This document shows, in pieces, positions 5,304-44,870 of a stretch of DNA of 64,000 nucleotides. Numbering within the stretch: the first letter of the stretch is position 1; each line of letters opens with the position of its first letter. This stretch comes from Thuidium tamariscinum (Eukaryota > Streptophyta > Bryopsida > Hypnales > Thuidiaceae). The translations under genes were made by a program, and so were the position numbers. The notes under the pieces are model-generated. The model did not search any database. It saw only the letters and a list, made by a program, of their open reading frames with translations, and had not been told where the DNA came from. The DNA lies in NCBI GenBank assembly GCA_947034885.2, contig OX344752.2, positions 9,920,001 through 9,984,000 on the forward strand. The letters are read 5' to 3'.

Positions 5304-6995
5304 ATCATAATCAATGGTACTTACAAGAATTCAAAGTTATGAAGATCTTGAAGTAGAAAGTTGCAATGCCAATGATGTCTTGTGAAAATTGGGGTTGAGG
5401 ACTTATAGGAGAAGCATTTACAAAGATTTGAACATGGAATTTTTGCAACTCTTTGTCCCTAGCCACTTGAACCTCCAAACCATAGAGGATGCAATTGCAA
5501 AATGCAGACCATGTCTTGAGATGAGTGGATTTCAAAACCATAGAAAGGAACAAGATAGCACAATGCAACTATTTTGTAATGCATTGGGGGTTGTCACACC
5601 TTCTTTGGTTGATGCCCATTCTGTAAAGAACTATGATGTGGCGACTGAAGGTTCACTTGTTTTGAGTAGAATATTCTTTTTATGCAAAGCGTTCTCCGCC
5701 TCGCCTCTACTCCTCCCGAGGTGGATAACAAGCATGAAGAAGCCTTCACGAGCAAATTTTTTCATCTTGCGCTCTTTGAATTTCACGATAGTTTCACCTC
5801 ATACTCCAATTGTGGTGCGGTTGCCCAGTTTGTTGTCTTCATCATTGGAACTCCTCCTGTCTGATTGGGTCATGCAAGGGTGGAATTAGCCCTATGCTAT
5901 TGGATTATGTGGAGATCAATTCTTTGCATTCAAAATTGATTTATAGAGTATCACACCTCCTCCATCCATCGTCACTTCCAATTGGCTCCTGTATTCCCTC
6001 ACTTACTTTTCATTCTCTTGAGAACCACACTGGGTGAAGAAGGTGTGACTATCCCTATTGTGGAAATGGAAATTCCTGCCACTTTTGATCACATTGTGAC
6101 ATTGTGATGAAATGAGAGTTCTCAACCAAAAATAATGGAAATTCCTGCCACTTTTGATCACATTGTGACATTGTGATGAAATGAGAGTTCTCAACCAAAA
6201 ATAATGGAAATTTCAAAAGGGGTCCACGTGGCAACATCCCATTTGTAGTTAATCTCTTAAAAAGGGGTACAAAAGGCAAAAAATTAGATTGCTAAATTGT
6301 CAAAGAAAAGCATGTGAAAGTGTTTGTTGGAGAAGAAAAGTTTGAAATTTGCATTCCAAAATACATTGCCATGTACTCATTGCAATGCTAATGAGATATG
6401 GGTGGTGCCATTCTAAACCCTAATGAAAACGACATTATCAAGTAAATATCAATGACATTATCACAAAACACAAAGAACATATAGATTCCGATCAAAAAAG
6501 AAGAGAGCTCTATCAAGTAAGTATTAAAGATAAACAACAAGATATTATGTGGATGAAATGTTTCCTCTAACCCTATTTGCTCAATAGTCCTAATCAGGAA
6601 GCACTAAGAGCTTGCTAATGAAACAAATAGAAATAATCAAATTTATAAAACAAAAAATTGATGCCTTTGTTACTTAAGAGCAAGGTCAAATAGAATTACT
6701 AGTAGAAGAAATCCTAAAATCACACAAACTCAATTAATGACGCACACTTGAATGCACTTGAAATCACCCAAATAACAACACAAGACACAAACTTTAGCAA
6801 TGGAAATGGAACTCACAAAATTGAGGAAGCTACAACAACGAAGCTCATGAACACACCCAACCTGTGTTGAACGCATTCAAAGCTCCAAAAATGAAGCTCA
6901 CCAACTAGTATTAAATGCATTTAGACACAAACCTTAAAATCACCTAAGCACAAGCACTAAAATTACACTGGACTACAAGTGAAACCCAAGCGGAA
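5304..6995. other. Intergenic; unassigned open frames near 5.4-6.0 kb
   Basis: A 166-codon frame runs 5389-5889 on the plus strand and overlaps shorter plus-strand frames to about 6037. The translated sequence (for example FLQLFVPSHLNLQTIEDAI) matches no family I know, has no clear domain, and a second frame looks equally protein-like from 5690 on, as in a decayed gene. I do not call a gene. The rest is AT-rich with one tandem duplication listed separately. Confidence 0.35.
6066..6204 (+). repeat. 69-bp tandem duplication
   Basis: Two near-identical 69-bp units (GGAAATTCCTGCCACTTTTG ... CTCAACCAAAAATAAT) follow each other, with the first few bases of a third. Each unit contains the near-palindrome CACATTGTGACATTGTG. 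The two units differ little, so the duplication looks recent. Confidence 0.9.
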
Positions 6996-19363: not shown

Positions 19364-20101
19364 TCACACTGTCTCGGTCCGATTTCTGTTGCCGTGTACA
19401 ATGTTGTATTTGCACAGAGGACAAGTTGCATTGATGCGTAGCCATTTGTTGATACACGTACCATGGAAGTGATGGGAACAAGGAAGATCGCGAAGCTCCA
19501 CACCATCCTCGTACGACGAAAGACATATGCAGCATTCTGCATCGTCTTCAAACAATGGCCGCTCCATCAAATTCTCCGAAGCTCCAACATATGTCATCAT
19601 ACCTGCAAGAGGTCGCTCCTTCTCTCCTTTCGCTTTCTCGTCACTATTGGATTTCCGGAACTTCGCGGTAGGCAAACTACTGATGTCTTCTTCCGACGCC
19701 CCTTCTTGGTCTGCCACTGCATATAAAATGGCAATGATGCAGGGAAGGCAACAGCAAACCGCTATGCCAATGACACAGGCCAGTGCCACACAAAATACAA
19801 CGAAAAATACATCGAATGCCAAAAATACCACACATAGCCAATACACATGTGGAGCATCGACCGAAAGCGACTGGCCCCCAGCTGTAATCCAATAGAATCC
19901 CGCAATCCACCATACAAATGAAAACATGGTATTCGCCGATTCCAGCCGCTTCGCCCAGCTCGCATCGTTAGATCCGCCCTCGTCCTCGAACCCGGAGTCG
20001 ACATCATTCTCTCCATTGGTAACAAGAGGAGATGAAGAGGCAGAATTTGAAGGAGAATTCAAATTCAAATTGACATTCGCCTGTTGTTGTTGCTGTTGTA
20101 A

Positions 20102-20137
<36 letters not shown>

Positions 20138-20605
20138 TTGCCGACGACGATACTCACAGCAAACACAAAGCATGTGCACGACACATTGTAACGCGTACCC
20201 CAAAATCCATAACCGAAGCTTATTGCAGTTCTTTTCTTCTTTGCTCATGGCCAAGATGGCCAGCGACACCTGAACGAAGGCCAAGTTCCATATCAAGTCG
20301 AGCACCACCACGGGTTTTGAATACGCCCAATCGCTTTGCCGCTCCTCCAGCTGCTCCGCGGCGCTCTCCCGCACCAGCATCGACGGCTCCCGCATCATGC
20401 GCCGGCTCCCCGCGCGACGCAGAAACCTCGCCGCGCCTTGGACTCTGCTCCGGCTGCCACCCCTCTGCGCCCCCCCGCCTCCGTCGCTCCCGCTGCCACT
20501 CCCGCTGCTGGAGCTCCCGTTCCCATTCTGAATCAACGGCGCCGCGATGTCGGACTCCGTCGTCGAAGAGGAAAACGAAACCCTATTCCTGCTGTCCCTG
20601 TCCAT
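19364..20605 (-). CDS. RIE1-like membrane RING-H2 E3 ubiquitin ligase
   Basis: A single uninterrupted frame encodes 413 residues. A Ser/Gly-rich N-terminus leads to the family signature MMREPSMLVRESAAEQLEE and RQSDWAYSKPVVVLDLIWNL (about residues 70-107), then two membrane spans (about 99-120 and 130-150), a Gln tract (about 156-175), an acidic linker, a further hydrophobic span and a long hydrophobic stretch, and a C-terminal RING-H2 finger. The ligands are C358, C361, C376, H378, H381, C384, C395 and C398 (C-x2-C, C-x-H-x2-H-x2-C, C-x2-C). This order is that of the plant RIE1 / At1g12760-type proteins, which transfer ubiquitin at membranes. I chose the Met at 20605 (MDRDSRNRVSF); the frame opens 25 codons earlier at 20680, but that part is unlike the family, and a possible donor (TTCAG/GTGATTG) lies just upstream. 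The Gln tract is not part of the family core and is probably variable. Confidence 0.92.
20081..20140 (-). repeat. CAG/CAA repeat coding for a Gln tract
   Basis: On the minus strand this is a run of CAG and CAA codons broken once by TTA, giving about 13 Gln, one Leu and 6 Gln. It sits in the loop after the second membrane span of the RING protein. The pure CAG core is likely to be length-variable. It produces spurious Cys-rich and Leu-rich frames in the other readings. Confidence 0.9.
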
Positions 20606-21718
20606 TGTGCTCACCCTCTCGCCCTCTCCCGGCCACAAATCTTGACCACGAATTCTCTGCTCACACTGCCGTGTCCGCAATCACCTGAATCCCCAAAATA
20701 CGAAAAAAATCCGCTGATACACTACACTTCAAAGGAAAAACCCTAAAGACAAACTTTCGAACGCGCTGCCCTAGTTTACGCTATTCCACATCCACACCAC
20801 TAATTCCGTTATGACCTTTTCGAGTTCTCTACCACGGAAATTAGGATCCATCTCCAGTCACCGCATCGCAACAATTTTTCTCTACTTGAAAAAAAGAAAC
20901 AAAATTGGAAACTTTGAAAAACATGCTCTCAAACCCTCAACCCCATTTGCTTCGACGACGACAAGCTCAAACCCTCGTTTCCTCCGCCACCCCACGTCGC
21001 AAGGTTCCGCTACTGCACTGCACCACAGCATGCAATTGAAATGGTAAAAAGGAAGCAAACAGGCGACGAGACAGGATGATCGAATTCAATGGCAGTGAGA
21101 GCGAGGAAGAGGACAACACACCCTTCCTGGTGTCGCAATGGGAGGCTCTGCAAGCATTCACGAAGCAGTGACGAGGACCTGGAAGAACCAAGAGCAGAAC
21201 CGGGCGCGGAACCAGGCACAGAAACTAGCGCGGAATGAGGGACAGAGGCCTACAAATCTACAATGTTAGGGCAGACTTTCAGACACCTTGAATCGGCAAA
21301 AACCTTGCATCAGCAAAATCTTGCAAAAAAAAACCCAAAAGAAACTCCAAATTTTACATGGAAGTGTGCAATATAGTAGGTGGAAGACAAGAATTAGGAT
21401 TGTTGACTACAAATATTAGAAGGAAGCTTGTGAAAAAGCAAGGGGCAAGATTATGAATTTTGAAAAATTATAATTTGCCTGGGGCTTAAACTTTTGGGTT
21501 GATTTTTAGTTTGATTGCATTCAAAATATGTAATTTTTCCTATTCAAATTGTAACAAAAGTATCATGAATGTCATGAAAGGCATAATTTTTTTAGGAAAA
21601 CTTGGCATTTCAAACACCCAACATCGAAGTTTTCATTAAGTAGAAGTTGGTTGTATATTTACGAAAAACATGATGACATTGAAACAAGGTCTTCATTAAG
21701 TTGATTTTGTACATCTTA
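20606..21718. other. 5' flank of the RING gene
   Basis: GC-richer DNA extends to about 21250 and probably holds the leader and promoter of the minus-strand RING gene. Open frames on both strands here are short and mutually overlapping. From 21250 to the foldback element the sequence turns AT-rich without recognisable features. Confidence 0.5.
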
Positions 21719-23897
21719 GGGTACGTGCACACCAACTGTTAGTAAACATTTTGGTGTTATTACAGGGGGCTAGTTTGACGTAGTCAACCTCTTGGGGGGC
21801 AAAGCTAGGATGCAAGTAGAAATTGCTTTTATTTTGCCTTAAATTGATTTTTTTCCCATCCTTGCACCCCTTTTGTTGCAATGTTAGCCAATAAGAATTC
21901 CCCAAAAGTTGTCAATCCATACATCCAAGCAACAAAGTAGAATAGAATCCAATGAAGTAGCTTTTATGCCACATATTTCATTTATTGATCTACTTTCTCA
22001 CTCGAGCTTCTTGGTCAATCTTCACCAAAACTAAAAGAGGAGAGAAGCTCTTTATATTAGTGGGATAGTGGTGGATGAAACAAACCATGTGGGATATGTG
22101 AATGAGGACAAAGAAGAGCTCCACCACTCATTGTTAAGTGAAAAAGTAGGAATTGTGATAGAAGTCAAATTTCATACTTCATTTAGACATAGTAAATTTT
22201 TTTTTTTTCAACAAACTTCAAACTAGGAAAAGTTATGGACAAATTTTAGAGAGGGTGTTTGAAAATGTCCAAAAAAATCTCTTTTCCACACACCCTCGTG
22301 AATTTTGTCCTAAACTCTTACAAGAGGTTCTAAAATCCCAAACTAGCTTGATTCTCCAACTTCTTCTAGTTCAATTTTTTTCAAATGGAAGCTAAAACAC
22401 AATTGATCAAAACATGGGTGGACAAGTAAGATTCTTCATCAACTATATAAATCTTTGTCTTGCAAGTTATTTCTAGACCATTGGAATAGTTTGACAAGGT
22501 ACATTCGATCAAGTCTCATGGTCACTTCCTACTAATTTGACAATAGCACAAGTCAAGCAAATGAAAAGGCTTGAGTACATTATTGTAAGTGTTGCACAAA
22601 TTTTGTTTGCGATTCATGTAGTCCGACCTATTGGCTATCCAGGCCGTTATTTTATAAGTACAGAGAATTTTTGAAAGGTTGTTTCAATATTGTATCAAGC
22701 ATGCTTACACAAATATATTCTTTAACAATATTTCATAATTGTATTAACGATGTTTAAATTTTTCTAGTATGTAAAGAATGTCTCATCGTTGTCTCAATAA
22801 TAAATGAATGTTCTCATAATTTATAATTTGCCTAATTGTCATTTTAACAATGGCTAAATGTTGTTGTGCTACTATGGATTAATTTCAAATCTAATGGTCT
22901 ATCTATAATGTGTTGAAACATTATATATTTTTTAATACGTTCAACCATTAGGTAAACATCCAAAAATATTCCATGAATGTTCTAAATAACAATAGAACAA
23001 TTTTTAGTCGTTTTCACTACTTTGAAAAAGTACACTAATGGCTTGCACCAAATGTTGAAACAACAATAAAACAAGAGGGGAGGAAACTTTGAGGTGTAAC
23101 TATGAACGACTTCATTTTTTGTAAACAAAATTGAAAAGTGTTGATTATGGTACAATGTTAGTGGTGGAGAATTTTCAAAAAAGGATTGAAAGGGATGTAT
23201 TTGTAGAATTGAACACCATTGTCATCTGTGCTTTCCTTTCAAAGTATTCAATACTTGGTAATTCTTAAACTCATCAATGCCTAAATTTTGAAAATATTTT
23301 TTATTTAATTAATTTAGTAAAATTCACTTATTTTTTCTAAACTTATTACAAATTAAATGGGATTAATTCCCCATATGCCAAAAGTAAATTCATAACAAAT
23401 CTACATGTGCTATTCATAGTGCATAACATTGCACAACGTTTTTGACACTTCATTTGTTTGAATGTTGAAATTGATGATTAGAAAATTTTCATATGAAGCT
23501 TCTAATATGTTTAATGATTAGTCTTTGTTAAATCAATTTTAAAACACCTAACTTCCCGATACTTGAAAAGTATAATTTTAATTTCATTTCTTGAATGAAA
23601 ATTTGTTGTGATCAATTGACAAAACTTATGCAATAGACATACATGTGAAATAAATATTTACAATGGAGGGTTGACAATAAAAACATCACTACTTAGATTC
23701 TCATAAAGTAATGATGCTTATATGTGACAAATTTTGCAATTGCACATTCTATAGAAACTACCAATTTCTTGTAGGATTTTTGTAGAAGTTAATAGAATAT
23801 TCTAGAATATCCTAAAATGAATTTTTGTAGACAACATATGAATGGAAGAAAAAAATTCACAATGCTATAAAATTAGTGTCCCTACAACAATATTGTA

Positions 23898-24677
23898 CAG
23901 TGGGGTACCAATCAAAATGTCGTTTTCGCATTCGCAGTGAGAAAAATTTCAACATTGCCAACTTTGAAAGCCTCTCGAGAGCTCAAAAATTGGTATTTTA
24001 CCACGAGATTTTTACCACATTTTCATCTTTAAGTTAGTTATATGCATGAAAAATTTCAAGGCCAAAAAATTCACCGAAAAAAAGTTATTCAAAATCTACC
24101 AACATTGGTAGTTGTGGAAATTTTTTCACTGCTGCCAACTTTGACAGCCTCCCAAAGATTGAATTTTTTTTTTGCCATGAAACTCTTGGATCAAAAACAT
24201 CTTTATGTTAGTAATACATGATAAAAATTTCAAGGCCAAAAGATTAATACAAAAAAAGATGTTAACAATCTATCAACATGTGTCGTTTTGAGAATTAATT
24301 GTGAAAACCGTTTCACTACTTCAACTTTGACACCCTCTCAAGGGCTGAAAAATTGCTTATTTACTATGAAATTTTTTCCACAAAGTGATTTCTATGTTAA
24401 TAACATTTGTGACAAGTTTCAAAGCCAAAAAAGTTATTTAAAAAAAGATATACAAAATCTACCAACATGTGTAGTTGTGAAAAACCATTTCACTACTTCC
24501 AACTTTGACACCTTCCTAAGGGCTACAATTTTACTTATTTACCAACAATTTTACTTATTTACCCTGAATTTTTTTGCACAAGATCCCCTCTATGCTAATA
24601 ACATGTGTGCCAAATTTGAAGGTCAAAAGATTTACACAAAAAAAAAATTTACAATTTACACACATGTGTAGTTGTGG
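23898..24677 (+). repeat. Left inverted repeat of the Tc1 element, tandem units inside
   Basis: About four units of roughly 180-200 bp follow each other; each carries the core CAACTTTGA(C/A)A(G/C)CC(T/C)(T/C)C, then a TTTACCA/TATGAAATTTTT block, a TCAAGGCCAAAA block and ATCTACCAACAT(T/G)(G/T)G. A fifth, diverged unit (about 24680-24855) adjoins the transposase stop but lies outside the paired part. The units are imperfect copies of each other, whereas left and right repeats match almost base for base. Confidence 0.85.
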
Positions 24678-24843
24678 GAAACAATGGGGGAACCATTTCA
24701 TTGCTACCAACTTTGACACCCTCTCAATGGTTAAGAAATTGTCTATTTACCACGAAATTTTTGGCACAACATGATCTTTATGTTAACAACATTCATGCCA
24801 AATTTCAAGGTCAAAAAATTTATACTAAAAAAATATTTACAAT

Positions 24844-25844
24844 CTACCAACGTGTATGTCCTCCATTTGCGTCAATCACTACTTGTAACCTAGAGGGCAT
24901 GGAATGACATAGTTGAAGGAGCTTTGTACCATTGATTAATCTCCACTCTCTTTCAATAACTACCTTTAAGTCATCTAAATTTCTTGGACATACTGGGCCA
25001 TGTTGCACATCATCTTTCAAAATCTTCCAAAGGTTTTCAATTGGATTGAGATCGAGAGAATTTGCAGGCCAATTGAGCTTCTCCAAAAGGTGTGTTTGTC
25101 TCCATTCTTCACATATTTTGCTATGATGGACAAGTGCGCCATCTTCCATGAGCAATCCCTATGGCACTCTACTCATAAAATGAAGCAACTCGCCATTGTA
25201 GACCACTTCAACAAAATCCTTAGCAGAACGTCTATCTTTGGGCATAAAAACAAGTTGTGACTTTTGCCCTCCAACAAATGCACCCCAAATCATCAAAGAT
25301 GTTCTCCCACTCTTAAAAGTTGGAACTATATAACTTGATGAATAGTGCTCATATGCATTTCTCCAAACATGAATTTGCCTAGAATTTTTTCCAACTTCAA
25401 AGGTAGACTCATAACTCTCTCCCATTCTTTTATACTCCACCCACAATACTTTTGAGCAAATGCCAATCGTTGAGACATGTGACGAGGTGTCAAGAAAGAT
25501 TTTTTAATTGCAATTCGACTGAAAATGCCACTCCCATGTAAGGCCCTTCAAATAGTCGATCTAAACACTTGAGTAGAACATATATTAGTGATCTCAGAGA
25601 GTGTCGAGCAACGATGAGTTTTTGAAACACGTATAATAGCACGGACATCTCTATCACTAAGCTTTTTAGCATGACTTCCACCACAAGGCTTGCACTTATA
25701 GGTTCCATCTTCTCGAAACTTTTTGACTACCCTCTGAATTGTTCTAACATGGACTCCAACAATAGCTGCTATGTCAACTCCTGTCTTCCCTGCCTCACTC
25801 AAACCTACAATGTGAGCACGAGTTTCATCTGAAATAGCCATCAC
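24844..25844 (-). pseudogene. Tc1-type transposase, disrupted
   Basis: The N-terminal part (from MMAISDETRAHIVGLSEAGK at 25844) holds paired helix-turn-helix motifs (GVDIAAIVGVHVRTIQRVVK, then KLSDRDVRAI). The catalytic part reads YESTFEVGKNSRQIHVW, SLMIWGAF, MEDGALVHHSK and SLDLNPIENLW. The Asp of MEDGA and the Glu of IENLW are separated by 34 residues, which gives the DD34E spacing of Tc1. The usual first Asp (SDES in the family) is replaced by Tyr. In-frame stops end the first block at about 25548 and the second at 25159, and there is at least one shift or small deletion near 25415. The protein therefore cannot be made whole, and the copy depends on other copies if it moves. Intact length would be near the normal 330-345 residues. 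Confidence 0.9.
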
Positions 25845-26418
25845 TGAGTGACCATGATCTAGCCTTCACTTAATTACCATGATCCAGCCTCACTCACTGA
25901 GCACATATATAACCTCACTCAGTCATTAGAAACAAATCTCACATACCCTCAATCACTCACCATGATCCAACCTTATTCACCTCATGCATAACCTCACTCA
26001 GTTATAAAAAAAAAACTCACATCTCCTCAATCACTCACCATCATCTAACCTCACAACCTTCACTCATTCATCAAACCTCACCAGTCACCTCATGTAAGTT
26101 AGAACCTCACTCACTCTTAAAGAAATCTCACATACCTGCATATATCCTCAGTCACTCATCCCATGCCTCATCCACTCAATTATCATATAGCCTAGACTTG
26201 CTCAGTTAACTCATCTTTCATGGACTCAATCACTCATGTTCACAAAGTTTCAATCCTATGCTTAGAAAATAATCACCCATCACTTGCTTCTCTCATCATC
26301 CCACATCCCACCTCTTGTAATGCTCAATTCTAAATGCAAGCATTCTTATTGAGAGGAAAAAGCTTCTTCATGCATGTATGGTCTCCAATTTTTAAACAAG
26401 TGCATTCTTTGAGATATA

Positions 26419-26691
26419 AGGTAGGTACACCCAAAAGCACCCTGTTCCTAAAAGCGCCATCTACAGCGCACATACATTTCTGAAATCAGTCATGTTCACT
26501 GACTGTAGATGGCGCTTTCAGAAACAGACTTTGATTGTTAATAACTTTTGCATATGGTATCCAAATCCTAGATTCTTTGGTGCGTTGGAACATGCTTTCA
26601 CTTGCCAACAAGGCTACATAAACATTTGAACTAATTAATAGCAGGAACTAGGCTCAATATGAATAAGTGGCGCTTTTGGGCGTACCTACCT
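26419..26691. mobile_element. Small TA-flanked MITE inside the Tc1 element
   Basis: The ends are AGGTAGGTACACCCAAAAGC and, reversed, AGGTAGGTACGCCCAAAAGC, flanked by TA at 26417-26418 and 26692-26693. The TA duplication suggests a Tc1/mariner-powered (Stowaway-like) MITE. An internal pair of inverted blocks with GCGCCATCTACAG surrounds 26452-26516. Part of the body (ACTTTTGCATATGGTATCC ... CACTTGCCAACAAG) recurs at 62225-62365. Confidence 0.7.
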
Positions 26692-26837
26692 TAACAAGTG
26701 CCCACAACTAGATTTGGCTATCCTTGATTTATTGAGAATAAATTATTATTAGAGATTGCATCATCTGGAGAATTTCAATCTAGAAGCATGAGTATCTAAC
26801 ATACTTCAACAATTTCAATGTCTTTGATAAAACGTAG

Positions 26838-27618
26838 CTCACAACTACACACATTGGTAGATTGTAAATATTTTTTTTTGTGTAAATCTTTTGACCTTCA
26901 AATTTGGCACACATGTTATTAGCATAGAGGGGATCTTGTGCAAAAAAATTCAGGGTAAATAAGTAAAATTGTTGATAAATAAGTAAAATTGTAGCCCTTA
27001 GGAGGGTGTCAAAGTTGGAAGTAGTGAAATGGTTTTTCACAACTACACATGTTGGTAGATTTTGTATATCTTTTTTTAAATAACTTTTTTGGCTTTGAAA
27101 CTTGTCACAAATGTTATTAACATAGAAATCACTTTGTGGAAAAAATTTCATAGTAAATAAGCAATTTTTCAGCCCTTGAGAGGGTATCAAGTTGAAGTAG
27201 TGAAACGGTTTTCACAATTAATTCTCAAAACGACACATGTTGATAGATTGTTAACATCTTTTTTTGTATTAATCTTTTGGCCTTGAAATTTTTATCATGT
27301 ATTACTAACATAAAGATGTTTTTGATCCAAGAGTTTCATGGCAAAAAAAAAATTCAATCTTTGGGAGGCTGTCAAAGTTGGCAGCAGTGAAAAAATTTCC
27401 ACAACTACCAATGTTGGTAGATTTTGAATAACTTTTTTTCGGTGAATTTTTTGGCCTTGAAATTTTTCATGCATATAACTAACTTAAAGATGAAAATGTG
27501 GTAAAAATCTCGTGGTAAAATACCAATTTTTGAGCTCTCGAGAGGCTTTCAAAGTTGGCAATGTTGAAATTTTTCTCACTGCGAATGCGAAAACGACATT
27601 TTGATTGGTACCCCACTG
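26838..27618 (-). repeat. Right inverted repeat of the Tc1 element
   Basis: This is the reverse complement of 23898-24677, with the same four tandem units in mirror order. Long stretches are identical to the left repeat, for example the block around CACAAAGTGATTTCTATG. The inner end is near TAGCTCACAACTACACAC. Confidence 0.87.
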
Positions 27619-28548
27619 TACATATTAGATAGGAATTTGTAAGGACTATCAATTAAAGAAAAGGATCATATTTGGATTCACTTACTTAAATAGAGAACTT
27701 CCTACTACTAGGATTGCACCGTTTTAAACATTTTTTAGTTTTTTTCACATTAAATGCAGCTACTAATGGTTAAACAAAAATGCAAGAATTATGTTCAAAG
27801 TTGAATTTTACAATTCATTTGGGCATAATGTAATAGCTTCATGTAATTGAGCTTCATTTAATTAAAGAAAAATTGAACTAGAAGAAGTTGGAGAATCAAG
27901 CTAATTTTTATCTCCCAAATTTTTTTTGGGATCTTAGAACCTCATGTAAGAGTTTAGGACAAAATTCAAGAGGGGGTGTGGAAAAGAGATTTTTTTGGAC
28001 ATTTTCAAACACCCTCTCTAAAATTTGTCCATAACTTTTCCTAGTTTGAAGTTTGTTGAAAAAAAAAAAATTTACTATGTCTAAATGAAGTATGAAATTT
28101 GACTTCTATCACAATTCCTGCTTTTTCACTTAACAATGAGTGGTGGAGCTCTTCTTTGTCCTCATTCACATATCCCACATGGTTTGTTTCATCCACCACT
28201 ATCCCACTAATATAAAGAGCTTCTCTCCTCTTTTAGTTTTGGTGAAGATTGACCAAGAAGCTCAAATGAGAAAGTAGATCAATAAATGAAATATGTGGCA
28301 TAAAAGCTACTTCATTGGATTCTATTCTACTTTGTTGCTTGGATGTATGGATTGACAACTTTTGGGGAATTCTTATTGGCTAACATTGTAGCAAAGGGGG
28401 TGCAAGGATGGGGAAAAAATCAATTTGAGGCAAGATAAAAGAAATTTATGCCTGCATCCTAGCTTTGCCCCCTAAGAGGCTCACTACATCAAACTAGCCC
28501 CTTGTAATAACACTAAAATGTTTACTAACAGTCGGTGTACATGTACCC

Positions 28549-33210: not shown

Positions 33211-33714
33211 ATGGTGCTTCCAATGAGTACAATGATTCGAGATGCAGTGATCCACATAAGGCAACGGAAAGGCACTAGCCTTGCTGAGATTCGCAAACAT
33301 CTAGAAGTAACTCACAATAAGAAGCTAGATGGAATTAATAAAAAGATGCTTACATCAACCTTGACAGGGTTGGTACAAACAGGACAACTACAAAAAAATG
33401 GTTCAAATTTCAAACTTGCAAAACTTGCAAGAAGAAGAGCATTAGACTCAAGCAAAGATGTGCTTTCTCGTCGACACTACCATTGCCCACCATCTATTAG
33501 ATATAAAATAGGATATCGAAAGCCATCTCGTAGAAAATATAAAAGACATCGTCATTGTCCTCGTCGAAAACAACATCGTCGCAAAAGACACCACCGTCGT
33601 AGAAGACATCACCACCATCGAAGAGCACACCACCATTGCAATCCAAAGAAATACAAATATCGTAGAAATCGTCCTGTCAATCGCCGAGGCCATCGCCATT
33701 GTCCTCGCAGGTAG
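33211..33714 (+). CDS. H1-type histone with protamine-like Arg/His/Cys tail
   Basis: This single frame encodes 167 residues. Residues about 5-72 form a linker-histone (H1/H5) winged helix: MIRDAVIHIRQRKGTSLAEI, IRKHLEVTHNKKLDGINKKM, LTSTLTGLVQTGQLQKNGSN, ending FKLAK. After a short linker (ARRRALDSSKDVLS), residues 87-167 are protamine-like: of 81 residues, 27 are Arg, 16 His and 9 Lys, with four Cys (92, 116, 143, 164), mostly in the recurring motif HCP(R)R. In liverworts, sperm protamines are known to be cut from male-germline H1-type precursors, so a role in packing sperm DNA is a well-based inference. The histidine load and cysteines could bind zinc or form disulfides. There is no intron, whereas plant somatic H1 genes usually have one. 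The stop sits within CAG/GTAGAAAG, which looks like a splice donor, so a further 3' exon is possible. Met 1, 5 and 8 are alternative starts. Confidence 0.82.
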   Translation: MVLPMSTMIRDAVIHIRQRKGTSLAEIRKHLEVTHNKKLDGINKKMLTSTLTGLVQTGQLQKNGSNFKLAKLARRRALDSSKDVLSRRHYHCPPSIRYKIGYRKPSRRKYKRHRHCPRRKQHRRKRHHRRRRHHHHRRAHHHCNPKKYKYRRNRPVNRRGHRHCPRR

Positions 33715-42619: not shown

Positions 42620-44870
42620 TCAATGTGCGCTGGAGTGTTTGATATATGATCTGTCGAGTTTCGTTGACAAGCGATCAAATATTTGCCATGAGGCATCGCC
42701 CTTCACTAGTGGATCAGTGAACAGCATCGCACGCCGGTTTGCCTCCGTCCAAAGATTCCTCTGTATTGCAGTTAGATTTGTAGCCGCCACATTGAGGAGA
42801 ATCTTGTCGAGTTTAGGCACGTCGTGCTCACGGACACTCAATGAGATGTTACCCCAATCAATGACATGTGAATAAGGCAGGGTAATGTTGTCTGCGATGA
42901 TCACAGGGACACAGCCATAGGTAACAGCTTCAACAATCCGAGGACTCCACGGTGCCCAGCCCAAGGGGCACAAGCAAAACGTGGACCGAAGCAGCTCCTG
43001 CTGGTAATTTGCAGCTCGTTGCCGCTTCAAATAAAACAAGCGCTTGTTACGCGAGAACCTTTTGTACAAAACTGTCCTTATGCCCCTGCAAGAATGAGCA
43101 ACCCAAAATTAGCACAAACAGATAGTGCTCGTAACTCTCTGAAACAGATACCTGGCTACAAGACAATGAGGATTTCCAGAGTGCATATACCATATCCAAA
43201 AAATTGGAGCTAAAAATTTGATTCCACTCCTTCCAGTAATGACAAGACGGAAAAAGAAACATTCTCAGAGGTATTCGAAGGTCTAGACTGAGAATTGGTG
43301 ACTATAATGTTATTAAAACAAATCTTGAGGTTCTGCCTCATGCATCATAAAGAGGAAAAGTTTAACACAAGATTGATTGAGATACACACCTGCTGTAAAC
43401 CAAGCCACTAACGTTCTTGGGATTTATCTCCATTTTTCCTCTAAAGAAAGCAAATATACTTCGTTGCTGTCGCTCTGGGGGATCCTGGATGTAAGAAGCA
43501 GCTACTGAAGGCGAGATGTACGGGGGAATCTGTATGTGTTCTGCTGTTTGACAAGGATGGAAGCCTTGTACTCCAAAGGTCTGTAGAATTAGAGAATTAC
43601 GCATAAATTCAGGTATCCCATGTGCAATAGCCTGTGACTCCTGCATTCTCAACGAAGGAAAAAAATCCTAGTCAATGAGGGAAATACCGGCAATAATGCA
43701 TGATCGGTAAAGTCAGAAAATTTTTCACAAACACACAAGCCTTGGACGCTTTCGGAATCAGAGGAACCAATATCAAATAAGCTCTATATTTCTTTACAAG
43801 CGTCTACCGTCTACTGTACGACGGGAAAGAACAAAAGGATTTCAAGTCTCACCAGTGTATGAAAACAAGCACCATAGTCATGAGCGGCGACAAAAATGTG
43901 ATCTCTTCCACCGTTACGGTTCCAGAATTCCATCTTCGTGGACACATGTTTCACTGCTGCTTGCATGAGTTTAGACGCATGCCCAAGCCATGGAAAGCCA
44001 GTCTTCGGACTAAATTTACACGAGACATAAACAGGCATGAAAAAAAAATCGGCTTCATAGGGATCCAACGTCCTGATCGGACTTTTCAATAGAACTCTGT
44101 GAATGGCGACCTCCGCGGCAAATAAATGGCTGGAACAGCGTTCATCAACCAGCCAATCCTCATTGAACTTTGCTGGCAGATCGTATACATATATTCGCAT
44201 CGGTCCGTTGGTAAGGTTTAACGGATTAAACGGAGTGGAATCAAAACCTGAATAAATCCAAGGTCCACGATCAGAACATTGAGCCTTAACTACTCCAAAA
44301 CCCATTCTACCAACAGTGATGGAACTTCATGGACGAGTTGTCATCCACGGAACACGGTTCACCGATTACGGTTTCCAAACCCGCCCTCTTTGACTGAGAC
44401 ACAGTTCCCATTATTTTAGTATTATCAGTACTATTACAAAAACAGGATTAGCTTGAGACAAAGCAAACTGTGAGTAAGAAACACTCACTTGAAACGTTGA
44501 ACAGAGTGAAATGGTCGGATTTGAATTGCCACTCTGTATTGCTCTTTTCTCCCCCCGTGTTCTCATTAAGCGGATTGCTAGCTTGCCCGAATGGCAATCC
44601 CCGCAAGCTAATTCTCAGCGATGCCTCACTGCCAGGTCCTAAATTTTGGGTCGGCACTTCCATGGAGGCTGGAAGGATGAAGAGACACAAGGCGAAGAGG
44701 AAAAGGAACACGGAAATAGCTAACCACAACGAACGCGGCTTCTCCCAGTGTGAGTGCAAGGCCCCCGGTGCTTCATGTCTGTGATTCTTTGAGAAGGACG
44801 TCAACGCGCCATAGTTCGCAAGGTCTCTGCACCCATTGCTCTTCAGAACTCCCGAAACGCGATGCGCCAT
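42620..44870 (-). CDS. GT47 exostosin-family glycosyltransferase, IRX7/FRA8-like
   Basis: Four exons on the minus strand (44870-44489, 44289-43853, 43640-43390, 43085-42620) join in phase to give 511 residues. A 47-residue cytosolic tail precedes one membrane span (about 48-67), the usual type II anchor of a Golgi enzyme. The exostosin domain runs from about 157 (MRIYVYDLPAKFNEDWL) through HLFAAEVAIHRVLL, RTLDPYEADFFFMPVYVSC, FWNRNGGRDHIFVAAHDYGA CFHTL, LQTFGVQGFHPC, IPPYISPSV, FFRGKMEINPKNVSGLVYS to CLCPLGWAPWSPRIVEAVTY GCVPVIIAD (about 394-422). The motifs fit the clade of Arabidopsis FRA8/IRX7 and F8H, required for the reducing-end sequence of glucuronoxylan; a role in hemicellulose synthesis follows from the family, while the exact sugar transferred is not certain. 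Possible N-glycosylation sites (NLT, NVS, NIT, NLT) are present. All introns have GT/AG borders; the gene looks intact. Confidence 0.93.

Follow-up and report, generated by a model that had tools for sequence, protein, structure and literature searches.

The window, which is the whole 64-kb stretch of DNA analysed here, covers positions 9920001 to 9984000 of contig C4 in a 363-Mb genome. At 33211-33714 it contains a gene whose product joins an H1/H5 globular domain to a strongly basic tail (Table 1). The frame starts at the first ATG past an in-frame stop located 13 codons upstream. The PF00538 match has an E-value of 9.9e-8 and scores 32.5 bits against the Pfam cut-off of 22.4, and in the alignment the homology common to the relatives extends past this match to about residue 72. 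The tail contains 27 arginines, 16 histidines and 9 lysines (52 of 81 residues), plus four cysteines (C92, C116, C143 and C164). It turned out that the sequence-only reading, which described a 167-residue frame with an H1/H5 domain followed by 81 residues including 52 Arg, His or Lys, was exact in all these counts.

Table 1. Features of the H1-type gene, with positions in the window
Feature	Position	Strand	Basis
Whole coding frame, 167 aa, TAG stop	33211..33714	+	No intron, ATG to stop
H1/H5 globular domain, residues 4-63 (PF00538)	33220..33399	+	Pfam, alignment, profile match to solved H1 domains
Junction V84-L-S-R-R88, candidate cleavage site	33460..33474	+	Counterpart of V/I-P-S-R in relatives
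Protamine-like tail, residues 87-167	33469..33711	+	Composition count and cysteine contexts

Over the tail stretch, the fraction of Arg, His and Lys is 0.63 in the coding frame versus 0.00-0.21 in the other five frames, and six different codons spell arginine in the gene. Since the coding frame alone is basic and all these codons are used, the tail composition belongs to the protein and is no by-product of triplet repeats. A search of the 64-kb window found no second copy of the gene.

Several other features were recognised in the window. At 23894-27622 lies a 3.7-kb element whose inverted ends, about 750 bases long, are 99-100% complementary and whose 30-base termini are perfect; it is probably a non-autonomous DNA transposon of recent origin. 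No Pfam match was obtained for the two frames, of 127 and 136 aa, that lie within its arms or span them. On the minus strand, a RING-H2 zinc finger gene with a repeat-encoded polyglutamine run lies at 19364-20680 (PF13639, E 6.7e-15), and exons of an exostosin/GT47 glycosyltransferase lie at 42620-44305 (PF03016, E 6.1e-28 and 4.4e-29). Besides, a 69-base unit is repeated in perfect tandem at 6065-6212 (2.1 copies, 100% match).

A family of H1-type genes with basic tails

The gene belongs to a family of at least eight genes, which are distributed on five contigs, are intron-free from ATG to stop and all encode an H1 globular domain with an Arg-rich tail behind it. The window gene shares contig C4 with C4b (4.81 Mb), three members are on C1 (C1a at 8.35 Mb, C1b at 52.26 Mb and C1c at 40.43 Mb), and C2 (10.36 Mb), C3 (1.31 Mb) and C6 (16.32 Mb) are named after their contigs. 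Searching the genome with the window protein gave 7 places and missed C3, and scanning it with PF00538 gave 13 places and missed C1c. With the relatives as queries, C1c gave 8 places and C6 gave 9, the ninth being a canonical H1 at E 0.006. The member count is a lower bound: the searches score the best candidates, and no single query recovered the full set.

The eight frames, which encode 138-208 residues, run uninterrupted from their first ATG to the stop, and in each gene another in-frame stop precedes the ATG by 2-26 codons; an intron may lie in the 5' untranslated part. In the genome scan, seven of the eight loci exceeded the curated PF00538 cut-off (C1c was absent from the list), and all eight proteins match the model at E up to 1. 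The stops flagged in the matches of C6 and C1a are, judged by their coordinates, the genes' own terminal stops, which the matches reached or overran. Because at least seven further genes of like build exist elsewhere in the genome, the frame at 33211-33714 is not a chance frame.

We compared the globular-domain codons among the members. In every pair (28 of 28), third positions differ more (0.52-0.78) than second positions (0.23-0.43). dS could be estimated in 14 of the 28 pairs and was saturated in the other 14; the dN/dS of the former is 0.09-0.46, including 0.27, 0.29 and 0.29 for the three pairs with the window gene, and these ratios are rough, as dS is large (1.5-4.3), although their direction is clear. 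The codon comparison shows purifying selection on the globular domains of the family. The gene at 33211-33714 is real and probably functional.

As sole query against solved structures, the window protein had no match up to E 1. For the profile of the eight members, H1/H5-type globular domains came out on top, the best being 1ghc (E 0.0012). The single-sequence AlphaFold2 model of the window protein was poor (mean pLDDT 52.7, pTM 0.21); this low-confidence model has helices at residues 5-20, 24-36, 41-56 and 59-79, the last of which sits at the expected position of the winged-helix wing. Over the whole globular-domain alignment of the family, ten columns are invariant. A branch of weak support (46/40) separates the eight members from the others in a tree built from 14 globular domains, and the only well-held pairs among them are C4b with C1c (96/99) and C1a with C3 (81/82). 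A single origin of the eight genes is likely on this sequence evidence.

Junctions, tails and other H1-domain genes

Between domain and tail, the pattern [VI]-[PLS]-[SKHR]-R-[RHK] occurs once in each of the eight members, at residues 81-91, and a short linker separates it from the globular domain. The junction reads VLSRR in the window gene, VPSRR in C1a and C3, IPSRR in C6, VPSRH in C1b, VPHRR in C1c, ISKRR in C4b and IPRRK in C2. The pattern was written after the sequences had been inspected, and as run on the window gene it matched one residue later (LSRRH). This junction could be the spot where a cut falls.

The tails contain 46-85% Arg, His and Lys together, with 22-55% Arg and 13-29% His. 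The high histidine content that had been pointed out for the window gene therefore extends to all eight members. The remark that the tail bears cysteines holds for the window gene with its four and for six of the eight tails, but it is not general, as two tails have none. Among the eleven cysteines overall, seven are preceded by His and two by Tyr, so that nine stand in HC or YC; the binomial p-value for His before Cys is 0.0025, in a test made post hoc in which repeats within one protein are non-independent, and the His-Cys context is only a lead. In the tail of C1b (L004), the motif FPKGYCKTHxRYH occurs twice, and C4b and C3 carry HCKTH and HCKRH, respectively. The CKTH/CKRH-type motif is a possible metal-binding or cross-linking unit. 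Non-basic C-terminal ends, which a plain protamine would lack, are longer in C4b and C1c and shorter in C2.

The same genome contains three canonical H1 genes (L008-L010, C1:30.8-31.1 Mb), which share the globular domain family with the genes described here but have Lys/Ala/Pro-rich tails. In the one canonical H1 gene read upstream (L029), a first exon ends with HPSYLV and an intron lies just before the Met of MVVEAI. The protamine-like family starts at about the place of MVVEAI and lacks both exon 1 and the intron. The protein of 33211-33714 has no N-terminal tail exon and no Lys/Ala/Pro-rich C-terminal tail, and the earlier suggestion that its tail differs from a plain Lys/Ala H1 tail was confirmed by the comparison of Arg/His here with Lys/Ala in the three canonical genes.

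Other genes with an H1 domain were also found. In the two open frames L013 (C8:7.53 Mb) and L015 (C6:9.55 Mb), which pair in the tree (98/95), the domain is followed by Ser-rich, partly acidic tails that differ from the canonical H1 and from the Arg/His family alike. L011 (C4:8.36 Mb) has a Gly/Arg/Lys tail after the H1 globular domain, similar in look to the AT-hook motifs of plant HMGA-type proteins.

Moss background and upstream regions

Eleven contigs of 17.5-54.2 Mb hold nearly the whole assembly, and this number already pointed to a moss rather than a liverwort. Contig C19, where psbA, rbcL, psaA, chlN and other genes were recognised by eye, is the plastid genome, and trnP-GGG was found on it. 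No plastid rpoA was found in the interval from the end of petD (C19:79580) to the start of rps11 (79893), in a contig of which 12,500 bases read N. An rpoA match is located on a chromosome instead (C2:15617929-15618261), within an open frame of 360 aa. In Table 4 of PMC5877570, all four mosses lack plastid rpoA, whereas Marchantia, Anthoceros and Huperzia have it. The loss of rpoA from its plastid place, together with the nuclear copy, identifies the plant as a moss and not a liverwort, a group that the sequence-only reading had named solely as a precedent. Besides, the axoneme gene PACRG was located on C9, where it lies in three pieces, and the plant can therefore be expected to have flagellate sperm.

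In Marchantia, the arginine-rich sperm protein MpPRM depends on DUO1, whose consensus is RRCSGTT (PMC6290024). We searched this consensus upstream of the eight genes (1,449-1,500 bases each, 11,832 in total) and found it in none of the eight regions, where 2.8 occurrences were expected from the window rate and 4.95 from base shuffles. Common 8-base words in these regions gave nothing convincing. The missing consensus means that there is no regulatory support for a sperm role, and DUO1 regulation through RRCSGTT was discarded as an argument. Either the moss consensus differs, the site is more than 1.5 kb away, DUO1 acts on the genes indirectly, or it does not target them at all.

Possible role in sperm chromatin

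The window gene is probably one gene of an H1-type sperm protamine precursor family, with at least eight members, in a moss. Taken separately, the parts of this reading differ in strength. That the members are sperm chromatin proteins is judged very likely; that they are precursors which get cleaved is favoured less strongly, though still on the probable side; and a cut at most a few residues away from the junction is suggested tentatively. The sequence-only reading had proposed an H1-type protamine precursor or a sperm H1. This class is well supported by the architecture, the size of the family and the junction, and the absence of RRCSGTT upstream of all members goes against it.

The proposed process would take place in developing spermatids, where the family would be expressed. 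The protein would be guided to linker DNA by its H1 globular domain, and its Arg/His tail would replace the histones and neutralise the charge of the DNA. The tail would then be cut off at or near the V/I-P-S-R-R-like junction, and the products would be small protamines of about 47-124 residues.

The closest alternative is that the proteins are uncleaved sperm-specific H1 or protamine-like proteins, in which domain and tail stay joined in mature sperm. The purifying selection on the globular domain suits such a protein, as a mere leader would need such selection less, and uncut sperm H1s exist in other eukaryotes; PMC10858212 reports a sperm-specific H1 in a brown alga. However, a junction pattern common to all eight members and the precedent of cleavage in a liverwort, given in PMC13148410, argue for processing, and we regard the uncleaved form as unlikely. 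Less probable again are somatic or stress variants of the linker histone, with an Arg/His tail serving vegetative compaction or metal binding and no relation to sperm. The upstream result agrees with such variants, and the high histidine content with some cysteine could bind metal. Against them stand the protamine-like composition of the tails, with Arg up to 55%, and the ordinary Lys/Ala tails of the canonical H1 set in the same genome; the family size and sequence spread, by general knowledge, also resemble sperm proteins.

A pseudogene or a chance frame in AT-rich DNA would fit the isolated position of the gene, since over 6 kb separates it on either side from the nearest recognised genes. 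But the good PF00538 match falls within an open frame, all eight paralogues are open and dN/dS is below 0.5 in every estimable pair. The open frames and the dN/dS largely refute this explanation, and we consider it very improbable.

The reading as cleaved sperm protamine precursors can be compared with known systems. The protamine P1 and P2 models of Pfam are not among the matches of the eight members. Mammalian protamine P2 is histidine-rich, cysteine-bearing and zinc-binding, and it is made as a precursor. It is like the moss tail in being basic, His-rich and Cys-bearing, the moss one being probably processed as well, but P2 has no H1 domain, which the moss family has. In Marchantia polymorpha, protamines are reportedly produced from male-germline H1 precursors with C-terminal di-aminopropanelation, in work ascribed to D'Ippolito et al. 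of 2019 (J Biol Chem 294:16364). These also come from a land plant and from an H1-type precursor with a basic tail, whereas the family here is from a moss. According to PMC13148410, some molluscs and tunicates and a liverwort cleave their protamine-like tails, and in the liverwort this yields several products. The mollusc and tunicate proteins described there combine a winged-helix domain with a basic disordered tail, a build that the moss family, with its putative winged helix, would share, but their tails are Arg/Lys-rich and those of the moss are Arg/His-rich. The comparison implies no shared ancestry with these animal proteins outside the H1 domain.

In the literature found, plant sperm protamine sequences are known from one liverwort. 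No paper with moss protamines in its title was found in a search that covered few subscription journals, and an earlier description in mosses may exist. The moss genes are new members, in a plant group for which we found no such report, and the histidine-rich tail chemistry may be the new part. A more far-reaching idea is that moss sperm chromatin is built of multigene, His-rich and partly Cys-bearing protamines from H1 precursors, in part of which His-Cys pairs would tie neighbouring tails together through metal or disulphide, convergent with P2, and histidine would make the condensation pH-dependent. We hold this idea as improbable at present. High histidine across the family would in any case be an unusual chemistry for DNA packing, and it is directly testable.

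In conclusion, a family of eight or more H1-type precursors in a moss would show this packaging system to be no oddity of liverworts. The H1 origin of land-plant protamines could then be tested across mosses, liverworts, ferns and charophytes. Histidine-rich multigene protamines in a moss, if true, would, taken together with those of liverworts, place H1-derived protamines in the ancestor that mosses and liverworts share.
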